38,541 bases of DNA from Candidimonas sp. GTDB taxonomy: Bacteria > Pseudomonadota > Gammaproteobacteria > Burkholderiales > Burkholderiaceae_B. Both the position numbers and the translations under genes were made by a program. This document shows, piece after piece, positions 10,236 through 14,105 of the stretch (positions are counted from its first letter, which is position 1; every line of letters starts with the position of its first letter). The DNA lies in NCBI GenBank assembly GCA_004298545.1, contig SCQX01000210.1, positions 1 to 38,541 of the forward strand. Direction: 5' to 3'. The notes under the pieces were generated by a model. It was not told where the DNA came from. It did no database searches and saw only the letters and a program-made list of their open reading frames with translations.

Positions 10236-10244
10236 TGCTAGAAT
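10236..10244 (+). promoter_or_regulatory. Extended -10 promoter for the riboswitch-antiporter transcript
   Basis: TGCTAGAAT is an extended -10 element (TGn plus TAGAAT). It would start transcription near 10251, shortly before the riboswitch begins at about 10262. No good -35 hexamer is visible, as is common for extended -10 promoters. Confidence 0.52.
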
Positions 10245-10261
10245 CCGCCTGCTTTTTCTCG

Positions 10262-10425
10262 TCATTGGGGAGTAGCCATCCCGGTTGATGGGGCGTGCGC
10301 ATGGCCGCCGCGCCAACCAGGAGCTTGCGTCAACATGCTCGGCGGGTTTCCCGTCGTGGCGCAAGCGGTCGCACCGGCGTTCGACGCCGCGTGTGGGCTC
10401 AGCGAGACCTTTGGCCACGGCGTGC
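10262..10425 (+). promoter_or_regulatory. yybP-ykoY (manganese-sensing) riboswitch
   Basis: The conserved blocks of this riboswitch class are all present in order: TTGGGGAGTAGCC at 10265-10277, GCGTCAACATGCTCG at 10327-10341, and GCGAGACCTTTGGCC at 10402-10416. Variable stems lie between them. Members of this class bind Mn2+ and switch on manganese efflux or related genes. The aptamer lies in the 356-base gap upstream of a cation antiporter gene, in the right orientation and behind an extended -10 promoter. The identification is by direct recognition of the motifs. Confidence 0.9.
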
Positions 10426-10435
10426 GACCGGGCGT

Positions 10436-10461
10436 CCCGTTTGGCTAGTCAGCCGAACGGG
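10436..10461 (+). promoter_or_regulatory. Hairpin in the riboswitch expression platform
   Basis: CCCGTTTGGCT and AGCCGAACGGG form an 11-base-pair stem with one G-T pair and a four-base loop. There is no T-tract after it, so it is probably not a simple terminator. It lies between the aptamer and the start codon at 10526 and could take part in switching. Confidence 0.55.
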
Positions 10462-10525
10462 GGCCCGAGTGGGCGGAGCGCGCCGTCGGCCATGGTCGTC
10501 AGCCCGCCCGGATCGAACGCCGCCA

Positions 10526-11527
10526 ATGCTCACCGTCTGCCTCTTGTTCCTCGCTTCGGCCGCGGCCATTTACGTCGCGTGCGAGTATTTCGTCAATGGC
10601 ATCGAATGGGTGGGCTGGCATCTTCGGCTGGGCGCCACCGCTGTGGGGTCGGTTCTGGCGGCTTTTGGCACCGCGTTGCCTGAAAGTGCCGTTACTTTCA
10701 TGGCGGTATTTTTCGGCTCCACCCAAGGCGGCAAGGACATCGGAGTTGGCGCGGCGCTGGGCGGTCCGCTGGTGCTGGCAACCGTGGCCTATGCCGTGGT
10801 TGGTTTCGCCTTGCGCCATCGGGCGGCGCGCGGGGCGCCGTCGGCACGGATCGACGCCGATCAGAGGCGGCTCGCTCACGATCAGTCCTGGTTCATGGTG
10901 ATTTTCGTCGCCAAGCTCGTGCTGGGCGTCCTGGTGTTTTCCTGGAAGCCGTGGCTCGCGCTGCTGTTCCTGTCGGCTTACGGCATCTATATCTGGCGCG
11001 AGCTGGGCGCGGGCGGCGCGAGTCTGGCCGGCGAGGACATCGGGCCTTTGAAGATCTGCCCGTGCCAGTCCCACCCCAGTGTGTTTCGCGCGCTGCTGCA
11101 AACGGGCGTGGCGCTTGTCGTCATCGTCGTCGCATCGAATGAGTTCGTGCGCCAGATCGGCACCATTGCGCTCTGGTCGGGCGTGTCGCCACACATCGCG
11201 GCATTGGTACTGGCGCCGGTGGCGACGGAATTGCCGGAGATCATGAACGCGATAATCTGGGTGCGCCAGGGCAAAGAGCGCCTGGCCCTGGCGAATATAT
11301 CCGGTTCGATGATGATACAGACGACCATTCCCAGCGCCATGGCCATTGGAATGACGCCCTGGCTGCTGGATACGCCGCTGCTGGTATCGGGGGGTATCAC
11401 CCTGCTTTCCGTGGCCGGGCTGCGATGGGCTTTCGGGCACGGAACCGTCGGCCCGAACACCCTTGCCCGCAGCGGCGCGCTGTATGTGGCCTTCGTGATT
11501 TTTGGCCTGGTGTACTTTGGCGCTTGA
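10526..11527 (+). CDS. Sodium/calcium exchanger-family cation antiporter under riboswitch control
   Basis: This is an integral inner-membrane antiporter of the Ca2+:cation (CaCA) family, similar in layout to YrbG/CaxA. The 333-residue protein has two homologous halves. Each carries the alpha-repeat signature around the ion site: FGTALPES at residues 47-54 and ATELPEI at 233-239. About ten hydrophobic segments are visible, with a polar loop near residues 100-120. I chose the ATG at 10526 because the frame upstream translates the riboswitch. The yybP-ykoY riboswitch suggests Mn2+ as signal and perhaps substrate, whereas the family name implies Ca2+. The sequence alone does not decide this. A CPC motif at residues 178-180 lies in the central loop. 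Confidence 0.88.
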   Translation: MLTVCLLFLASAAAIYVACEYFVNGIEWVGWHLRLGATAVGSVLAAFGTALPESAVTFMAVFFGSTQGGKDIGVGAALGGPLVLATVAYAVVGFALRHRAARGAPSARIDADQRRLAHDQSWFMVIFVAKLVLGVLVFSWKPWLALLFLSAYGIYIWRELGAGGASLAGEDIGPLKICPCQSHPSVFRALLQTGVALVVIVVASNEFVRQIGTIALWSGVSPHIAALVLAPVATELPEIMNAIIWVRQGKERLALANISGSMMIQTTIPSAMAIGMTPWLLDTPLLVSGGITLLSVAGLRWAFGHGTVGPNTLARSGALYVAFVIFGLVYFGA

Positions 11528-11694: not shown

Positions 11695-12585
11695 ATGGAT
11701 CTGATCGGCTGGCTGACACCCTGGGAATTTTCCCCCACCTTTCTGCTCGTATTCATCGTCGCGGTCGTCTTGTTCCTGCGCGGCTCGTTCGTGCATCACG
11801 TCACTGTGCGGCGCCAGCTGTGCTTCTGGCTTGGCATGGCGATGCTGTATTTTTCGCTGCAGACTCGGCTTGATTATTACGCCGAGCGCATGTTCTTCAT
11901 CCATCGCCTGCAGCATCTGGTCCTGCATCATCTCGGGCCGCTACTCGTCATGGGCGGCTACCCCGGTTCGGTGATGCGCGCTGGCTTGCCCCAGGCGTGG
12001 CGCCGCCGTCTGCGTGAATTCCAGGGTACGCCGTGGGGCCGCGCGCTGGGCGCCACACTGACCAACAAGTACCTGATTCCATCCGCGTTCCTGTTCCTTG
12101 TTCTGATCTGGCTCGTTCCCACGATTCAGTTCTACTCCATGCTCGACTGGCGCCTGTACCGGCTCATGAACTGGTCGGTGACGATCAGCGGCATTCTGTA
12201 CTGGAATCTGGTTCTCGACCGGCGCACTTGTCCGCCGTGTTCGATGCCGGTGGGCGGTCGCGTTTTTTCGCCCGTGCTTACCATGACGCCGCAGATGATC
12301 ACGGGGGCGTTCCTGACGTTCACCCGGCAGGACCTCTACCCCATATTCGATCTCTGCGGACGCGCCATTCCGGGAATTTCGGCGGCGTCCGACCAGACGC
12401 TCGGTGGCCTGATCATGTGGGTTCCGGCCGGCCTGATCGAGGTCACCGGCATGATGGTGGCGTTGGGAACGCTGCTGCGCTTGTCGAGCAAGAGCCGTCT
12501 GCCGAACAAGCGTGATCTGGCCCTCGCACGCCAGCGCGCAGCCGCGGCCGCGGCTGTCGCGGCGGCGGATTCCGGATACTCATGA
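11695..12585 (+). CDS. ctaG: CtaG-family cytochrome c oxidase assembly protein
   Basis: This is a multi-pass membrane protein of the caa3-type CtaG family, which helps assemble heme-copper terminal oxidases. The 296-residue product has about seven hydrophobic segments. The characteristic HRLQHLVLHHLGPLL histidine-rich stretch lies near residues 70-84, and MTPQMITGAFLTF comes later. It differs from the Cox11-type CtaG, which is a single-pass protein with a CFCF motif that is not seen here. I chose the ATG at 11695, downstream of a good promoter. Its stop codon overlaps the start of the next gene by four bases (ATGA). The Ala-rich C-terminal tail is low complexity. Confidence 0.87.
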   Translation: MDLIGWLTPWEFSPTFLLVFIVAVVLFLRGSFVHHVTVRRQLCFWLGMAMLYFSLQTRLDYYAERMFFIHRLQHLVLHHLGPLLVMGGYPGSVMRAGLPQAWRRRLREFQGTPWGRALGATLTNKYLIPSAFLFLVLIWLVPTIQFYSMLDWRLYRLMNWSVTISGILYWNLVLDRRTCPPCSMPVGGRVFSPVLTMTPQMITGAFLTFTRQDLYPIFDLCGRAIPGISAASDQTLGGLIMWVPAGLIEVTGMMVALGTLLRLSSKSRLPNKRDLALARQRAAAAAAVAAADSGYS

Positions 12586-14105
12586 TCGAACTCACGCTCC
12601 TTGCGCGGTGGCTGCGGCGCTTGCGGCGCTCGAGCGTGGGGGCAGTTTGCGGCGGGGTCATTTTCTCTCTGGCGATATTGCCGTCGTCCTGGGCGCAGCC
12701 GATCGGGATTCCGAGCATGGGCTCGGCGTCTTCCGCCGAGCTTTCTCCAGAGCTGGAGCGGATGCTGGGCGATGCGCTCATGGAGCACGGTCGGCGCGAC
12801 CCCACGTACATCGCCGATCCGGACGTCGATCAATATCTGACCCACATGGGTCGGACGCTTGTGGCGCATGCACCCAATGGCGCCCAGCATATACAGGTTT
12901 TCGCCATTCGCGATCCGCAGATCAATGCCTTCACGATGCCGGGAGGCTACATCGGCGTGAACAGTGGGCTGGTGGTGGCCACCACCAACGAATCCGAACT
13001 GGCGTCGGTCATCGCCCACGAAGTGGGGCATGTCATCATGCGCCACATCGCGCGCGGCATGACCGAGCAGTCGCAGAACCGCGGTGTGCTGGTGGCGTCG
13101 CTGGTGGGGGCGTTGCTTGCCGCGCTGTCGGGCAGTGGCAACCTGGCGATGGGAATGGCGTCGTTTGGGCAGGCGGCGGCGGTAGACCGGCAGCTCGGCT
13201 TTTCCCGCGGCGCGGAGCAGGAGGCCGACCGCGAGGGGTTTCACATGCTTACTGCCGCCGGCTATGACCCGCGCGGCATGGTGCAGATGTTTCGTTCGCT
13301 GATGAAATCGTCCAGCCTCAACGAGGTCTCGGGCGGCACGCCGTTCGCGCAGAGCCATCCTCAGTCCATTCAGCGGCTTTCCGACATTGAAAACCGGGTC
13401 GAGCAGATGCGGCCGGTGCACCACCAGGATAGTGCCGACTATTGGTTCGTTCGCGCCAAATTGCGTGCCATGCAGGCGGGCGACGAAGAGTCGCGTCGCC
13501 AGGTGTCGAGCCTGTTCGAGGCTGATGCGCGCAGCGCTTCGGGAACGGTCCGGTCGGCGGCCTGGTATGGCGCCGCCTATCTCGCCTGGCAGATGCGCGA
13601 CACGGCGAAAGCACAGTCGGCGCTGCGTGAAGCCAGAGCCGATGGGGATTCCCCCGAAATCGATGAGTTGTCGATTACGCTTGCCGGTGACGCGCACGAT
13701 GGCGCCGCGGCCCTGGCGATGGCGCGCGCGGCGTGGGCGCGGTGGCCCGAAAGCCAGGGCGTGGCCCTGGCGCTGGCGCGCAGCTTGCAGCAGGCTGGCG
13801 ATGTGGCAGCGGCATCCACGTTTCTGCAGGCGCGGGTGCGGCAATGGCCCCAGCTGCCTCTCATGCGCAAGTTGTTGGCGCAGGCCTACGAACAGCTTGG
13901 CAAGCCAGTCGAGGCGCGCCGCACGATGGCCGAGTATTACGTGCACACGGGCGCTTTGCCGACGGCGGTGGAACAACTGCGCCAGGCGCGCAATCTGTCG
14001 CACGACTTCTACGTGCAGTCCGAACTCGATGCCCAGATTCGCGATTTGCGCCAGCGGCTCGATACGGAACGCGCCTTGCTCAAGCAATTCAAGGTACAAC
14101 CTTGA
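12582..14105 (+). CDS. M48-family metalloprotease with TPR-like C-terminus (BepA-like)
   Basis: This is a probable periplasmic zinc metalloprotease related to BepA (YfgC), which checks outer-membrane protein assembly. The 507-residue product has an N-terminal signal sequence ending near SSWAQ (residue 39), the HEVGH zinc motif at 146-150, and the third-ligand region EQEADREG at 212-219. A C-terminal alpha-helical stretch from about 280 onward is rich in Ala and Leu and looks like TPR repeats. The ATG overlaps the ctaG stop by four bases, so translation is probably coupled. BepA-type quality control is inferred from domain order. The gene converges on the YheT-like gene, 61 bases away. Confidence 0.9.
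   Translation: MIELTLLARWLRRLRRSSVGAVCGGVIFSLAILPSSWAQPIGIPSMGSASSAELSPELERMLGDALMEHGRRDPTYIADPDVDQYLTHMGRTLVAHAPNGAQHIQVFAIRDPQINAFTMPGGYIGVNSGLVVATTNESELASVIAHEVGHVIMRHIARGMTEQSQNRGVLVASLVGALLAALSGSGNLAMGMASFGQAAAVDRQLGFSRGAEQEADREGFHMLTAAGYDPRGMVQMFRSLMKSSSLNEVSGGTPFAQSHPQSIQRLSDIENRVEQMRPVHHQDSADYWFVRAKLRAMQAGDEESRRQVSSLFEADARSASGTVRSAAWYGAAYLAWQMRDTAKAQSALREARADGDSPEIDELSITLAGDAHDGAAALAMARAAWARWPESQGVALALARSLQQAGDVAAASTFLQARVRQWPQLPLMRKLLAQAYEQLGKPVEARRTMAEYYVHTGALPTAVEQLRQARNLSHDFYVQSELDAQIRDLRQRLDTERALLKQFKVQP

Follow-up and report, generated by a model that had tools for sequence, protein, structure and literature searches.

A manganese riboswitch ahead of a CaCA-superfamily antiporter gene in Candidimonas sp., a probable manganese exporter locus of the Bordetella BP3410 type

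The riboswitch and the antiporter gene

The DNA analysed here (the window) is a stretch of 38,541 nucleotides from Candidimonas sp., in which a yybP-ykoY riboswitch aptamer (Rfam RF00080) is followed by the gene of a 333-residue antiporter of the Ca2+/cation antiporter (CaCA) superfamily (Table 1). A sequence-only reading of the window had recognised the three conserved blocks of this riboswitch class in front of a CaCA antiporter, and this was borne out: cmscan of the whole window aligned the full RF00080 model (1-177), conserved blocks included, at 59.7 bits (E 2e-13; gathering cut-off, 45 bits), and the encoded protein matched PF01699 in two stretches at 97.7 bits (cut-off, 24.9). The same aptamer was found again when a short stretch was scanned, and a genome scan returned this one copy of RF00080 only. 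The span given in that reading, 10262-11527, ends exactly with the gene but begins one base inside the first aptamer block. A chance match is ruled out by the E value, as is a riboswitch serving another gene, none being present between aptamer and antiporter. The region downstream (11695-14105, + strand) encodes a CtaG-like cytochrome oxidase assembly factor and an M48 peptidase with TPR repeats, neither of which has an evident link to manganese.

Table 1. Coordinates of the features of the riboswitch-antiporter locus
Feature	Position	Strand	Remarks	Basis
Probable extended -10 promoter element, TGCTAGAAT	10236-10244	+	hexamer TAGAAT at ~10239-10244
Mn2+ (yybP-ykoY) riboswitch aptamer, RF00080	10255-10429	+		cmscan
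First aptamer block, GTCATTGGGGAGTAGCC	10261-10277	+	holds the P1 5' strand	located in sequence
Second aptamer block, GCTTGCGTCAACAT	10323-10336	+		aligned to Rfam consensus
Third aptamer block, GTGGCGCAAGC	10356-10366	+	pairs with GCTTGCG of the second block	Rfam structure
P1 3' strand, GAGACCTTTGGCC (GAGACCUUUGGCC)	10404-10416	+	switch strand a
Strand c of the putative OFF hairpin, ACGGCGUGCG	10417-10426	+		covariation with c'
Candidate strand b, GACCGGGCG or part of GAGUGGGCGGAG	10426-10434 or 10467-10478	+	ambiguous
Extra hairpin in the platform loop, CCCGUUUGGCU-AGUC-AGCCGAACGGG	10436-10461	+		predicted in the window fold
Strand c', CGCGCCGUCG	10479-10488	+		covariation with c
Strand a', GGCCAUGGUC	10488-10497	+	mimics the P1 5' strand, can capture strand a
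Strand b', CAGCCCGCCCGGAUC	10500-10514	+	3' strand of the helix next to the start codon
CaCA (YRBG-like) antiporter gene, 333 aa	10526-11527	+		PF01699

Of the 80 related leaders, 79 retain GGGGAGTAG within the first block. Strand a, which is the P1 3' strand, is nearly invariant in the 60 leaders that were aligned, and it can pair either with the P1 5' strand or with strand a' downstream. The promoter element of Table 1 would place the transcription start of this species at about 10251; a match of 5-6 out of 6 to TATAAT is found within 37 bases upstream of the first block in 56 of the 80 leaders, against about 4% of shuffles. Manganese-dependent folding and activation are known for the Bordetella counterpart of this leader (PMC8546581), and by analogy the window leader would behave in the same way.

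The gene probably starts at the ATG at 10526, since homologues align from that methionine, although its frame continues open beyond it on the upstream side. A structure model of the protein (pLDDT 90.4, pTM 0.88) found its best PDB matches by Foldseek among the H+/Ca2+ exchangers (4kpp, VCX1, YfkE) and NCX_Mj; the closest solved relative in sequence is a Na+/Ca2+ exchanger. The NCX/CAX fold (about ten TM helices in this superfamily), the two PF01699 stretches, and E53 and E238, which do not vary across 115 sequences and are the counterparts of the glutamates E54 and E213 in the alpha repeats of NCX_Mj, place the protein in the CaCA superfamily. By score, however, it is a relative rather than a member of the curated calcium/sodium antiporter family of the YRBG type (TIGR00367), with 70.1 bits against a cut-off of 179.65, so the name "Ca/Na antiporter" should not be applied to it.

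In NCX_Mj, S51, S77, N81 and S236 are described as ligands of Na+ or water (PMC12874050); their counterparts in the antiporter are A50, G80, L84 (or T86) and A/S261, while S210 aligns with an invariant glutamate (E235) and D240 with an invariant glutamine (Q265), in a mapping that has gaps near N81 and D240 and is uncertain there by a residue or two. Since the Na+-site residues are replaced, this suggests that the antiporter is not coupled to Na+, hinting at H+ as the coupling ion.

Linkage of riboswitch and antiporter among relatives

A survey of genomes for this pairing, which the sequence-only reading had proposed, recovered it in both sets that were searched. Of 150 genomes sampled from the same order, five (that of the window included) carry a homologue with 53% identity or more, and in all five RF00080 lies directly upstream on the same strand. 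At least 531 relatives came out of a scan of named genomes, and the best 80 of these were kept (57-64% identity), including sequences from Bordetella, Achromobacter, Candidimonas, Pusillimonas, Luteibacter, Dyella, Frateuria, Acinetobacter seifertii and others; 77 of these 80 have RF00080 upstream above the Rfam cut-off. The leaders L129 (42.7 bits) and L181, which are not among the 77, retain the first aptamer block, and one relative among the 80, L177 from a metagenome-assembled genome, has no recognisable riboswitch upstream. In L177 (2550-3001) a sequence resembling strand b' of the platform described below, CACGCCCGGCC, seems to be retained before the start codon without an aptamer.

In a maximum-likelihood tree, the window gene belongs to an Alcaligenaceae clade with Bordetella, Achromobacter and Pusillimonas (support 100/97), and its product is about 64% identical to the nearest relatives among the matches listed. 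In Bordetella trematum the single CaCA gene and the single RF00080 stand next to each other, from which we infer that BP3410 of Bordetella pertussis belongs to the same clade; the window gene would thus be an orthologue of BP3410, a comparison made through other Bordetella species.

In B. pertussis the pairing of riboswitch and CaCA gene was tested in 2021: manganese induces BP3410 via the riboswitch, induction is lost when two conserved G residues of the aptamer, or the promoter, are mutated, calcium has no effect on expression, and a functional copy of the gene lowers cellular manganese about five-fold (PMC8546581). A 2023 review accordingly lists BP3410 among the bacterial Mn exporters, under Ca2+:cation exchangers, YRBG (PMC9936198). 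We consider it highly likely that in the window, too, a Mn2+-sensing yybP-ykoY riboswitch turns on a Mn2+ exporter of the CaCA superfamily that is orthologous to BP3410. The prediction of the sequence-only reading that this antiporter exports Mn2+ is, by analogy with BP3410, well supported; it does not, however, give a new function to an uncharacterised type of transporter, because for BP3410 the same prediction had already been made and tested (PMC8546581). The window locus is hence a new example of an arrangement already known from Bordetella.

The inventory of the Candidimonas genome fits such a role. Family searches found one CaCA gene and, in an assembly listed as 96.9% complete, no gene of the UPF0016/GDT1 or MntP type, and the window antiporter is the only candidate exporter among these three types. 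With a single CaCA gene, a single riboswitch and neither an MntP nor a UPF0016/GDT1 gene, and with the search covering these three exporter types, the antiporter is probably the main Mn exporter of this organism.

A covarying expression platform

The region between aptamer and gene was aligned across 60 leaders, beginning with the P1 3' strand and ending at the start codon, and the pairs of three helices were counted. Helix 1 (a:a') is formed by ACCUUUGGC of the P1 3' strand and GCCAUUGGU, the latter resembling GUCAUUGG of the P1 5' strand, and it hardly varies. Helix 2 (c:c') extends helix 1 by seven pairs, all seven of which show compensatory double changes, with about 94% of the cells paired. 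Helix 3 (b:b') links the loop of the putative OFF hairpin to the bases 4-14 nt before the start codon; 95.1% of the cells of its 12 pairs are paired, and six of the 12 show double changes. Together the three helices comprise 26 pairs, with 95.2% of the cells paired and double changes in 13 pairs. None of 500 shuffles attained any of these measures, a control that yields no probability, the leaders being related; controls that preserve this relatedness agree, the pairing falling to 30-43% when the partners are slid by one to three columns. Since the pairs of a:a' hardly vary, the covariation backs mainly c:c' and b:b'.

The hairpin made of helices 1 and 2 competes with P1 for strand a. Helix 3, in turn, can hardly coexist with helices 1 and 2, judging from the geometry, because it crosses them, and they contain 14 pairs and leave few bases before b'. 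In the leader of G390 (L192), a more distant homologue, a like arrangement can be read by eye with a quite different b, CACGGUCGGACG with CGUCCGACCGUG. We found no description of this conserved platform in the open-licence literature searched, and it is the part of the present analysis that may be new.

We propose that this platform is the switching part of the riboswitch, which very probably turns on manganese export. Without Mn2+, strand a would pair with a' and the helix would be extended by c:c', producing a long OFF hairpin at which expression would stop. With Mn2+, the aptamer would dock and P1 would hold strand a, so that the OFF hairpin would be lost, the full mRNA made, and the b:b' helix free to form close in front of the start codon; the antiporter would then export Mn2+, probably in exchange for H+. 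One feature is left unexplained by this model: a 12-bp helix that forms in the ON state so near the start codon, 4-14 nt ahead of it, would be expected to hinder translation.

How the OFF state would be brought about may differ between leaders. In the Bordetella leaders the end of the OFF hairpin lies 184-202 nt past the first block, where the short, approximately 200-nt leader transcript BprK (PMC3110155, PMC8546581) is reported to end, and this match fits premature transcription termination as the simplest OFF state there. In the window, a simple terminator scan of the leader gave nothing useful, and a' is followed by GUCAG, with none of the U-rich tail that many relatives have; because this copy is without a U-tract, its OFF mechanism may be a different one. 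Intrinsic termination at the window leader is doubtful, and Rho-dependent or translational control may operate instead. More generally, translation or Rho, and not intrinsic termination, might be the route by which the platform acts, with the OFF hairpin or b:b' gating the access of the ribosome or of Rho and the change in mRNA level being secondary. We regard this as a substantial possibility, if not quite a probable one, and it overlaps with the preferred explanation; most leaders have a short U-run behind a', the U-runs of many relatives are weak, and b' is conserved and within ribosome reach of the start codon, whereas the length of the Bordetella BprK transcript argues for termination at the OFF hairpin. 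The window leader is further distinguished by a 26-nt hairpin with a perfect 11-bp stem (Table 1), which is present in this leader only among the 60 aligned.

Manganese export, calcium transport and known systems

Among 46 riboswitch loci examined across the class and order samples, the gene downstream encodes a protein with the UPF0016 motif in 37, MntP in two and a CaCA protein in five, that of the remaining two not being assigned by motif. In one genome that also has the CaCA pairing, an 88-bit Mn riboswitch (L087; G368:C56, 1501-1670) stands before a PF13557 (Phenol_MetA_deg) gene (1632-2501, + strand), an unusual target. Distant CaCA homologues (approximately 30-37% identity) are common and mostly without a riboswitch, but two in the order sample, those of G296 and G390, do carry one and represent a second lineage with this pairing. 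In G296 (L193; G296:C29:79400-81600) a decayed UPF0016 gene (564-665, + strand) is preserved between the riboswitch and the CaCA gene, with 62% identity over 34 residues (E 1e-10) and the motif EIGDKT now reading DIGNKT. It seems that here a CaCA gene took over from a UPF0016 Mn exporter under one and the same riboswitch, which lends independent support to Mn export by this CaCA subfamily.

Whether calcium is moved in addition is a separate matter. An exporter of both Mn2+ and Ca2+, with Mn2+ as the physiological trigger, would overlap with the preferred explanation, since the latter needs only Mn2+ export; the family has its ancestry in Ca2+ transport, and a Streptococcus Mn riboswitch drives an Mn2+/Ca2+ ATPase (according to the title of Martin et al. 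2019, cited in PMC9936198). We nevertheless think such dual transport rather unlikely, given that BP3410 is not induced by calcium (PMC8546581) and that the literature searched yielded no Ca2+ transport data for this clade. The other reading raised from the sequence, that the antiporter exports Ca2+ and Mn2+ merely acts as a signal adjusting Ca2+ movement, is highly improbable: the family name (Na_Ca_ex) and the Na+/Ca2+ exchanger as closest solved relative speak for it, but BP3410 exports Mn while its expression ignores Ca (PMC8546581), the Na+ or water ligands of NCX_Mj are replaced in the family, and in L193 a superfamily gene stands behind a decayed UPF0016 gene, with one riboswitch ahead of both.

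Riboswitch control of manganese export by CaCA antiporters is no peculiarity of Bordetella: the arrangement is common among the Alcaligenaceae and the Rhodanobacteraceae and also occurs in some Moraxellaceae. Given how wide the pairing is, many genes named "calcium/sodium antiporter" deserve re-annotation. The covarying platform, for its part, offers a specific and testable model of how the switch operates. A broader proposal would combine a two-layer switch, in which the OFF hairpin is set against P1 together with an excluding and possibly translational b:b' helix, with the assignment of the whole subfamily bearing the ATELPE motif and the invariant glutamine, now annotated as Ca2+/Na+ antiporters, as H+-coupled Mn2+ exporters, riboswitch-less members included. 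We advance this combination tentatively, as possible but on balance doubtful.

Several known systems share parts of this arrangement. The overall fold and the alpha-repeat glutamates are those of NCX_Mj (Na+/Ca2+) and of CAX/VCX1 (H+/Ca2+), but the Na+-site serines and asparagine of NCX_Mj are replaced in the antiporter. The UPF0016/GDT1 proteins (MneA, MntX) and MntP under RF00080 within this order and class have the same aptamer family and the function of Mn export in common with the window locus; they belong, however, to transporter families unrelated to CaCA, and the distance from the aptamer end to their start codons is mostly no more than tens of bases, which leaves no room for a long platform. 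In the yybP-ykoY riboswitch of Lactococcus lactis, helix P1.1 and a terminator are described as competing for one 3' strand (PMC11087558, PMC9190785), the same logic as is proposed here for the window switch; the gene controlled is a different one, yoaB, and no mention of a helix like b:b' close to the start codon was found in these accounts.

The closest likeness is to BP3410 and BprK of Bordetella, where a riboswitch of the same Rfam family stands immediately before a CaCA antiporter gene. The window leader differs in its extra hairpin and missing U-tract, and whereas the published gene of B. pertussis has mostly been put out of action by a duplication (PMC8546581), the window gene is an uninterrupted frame for a protein of 333 aa.
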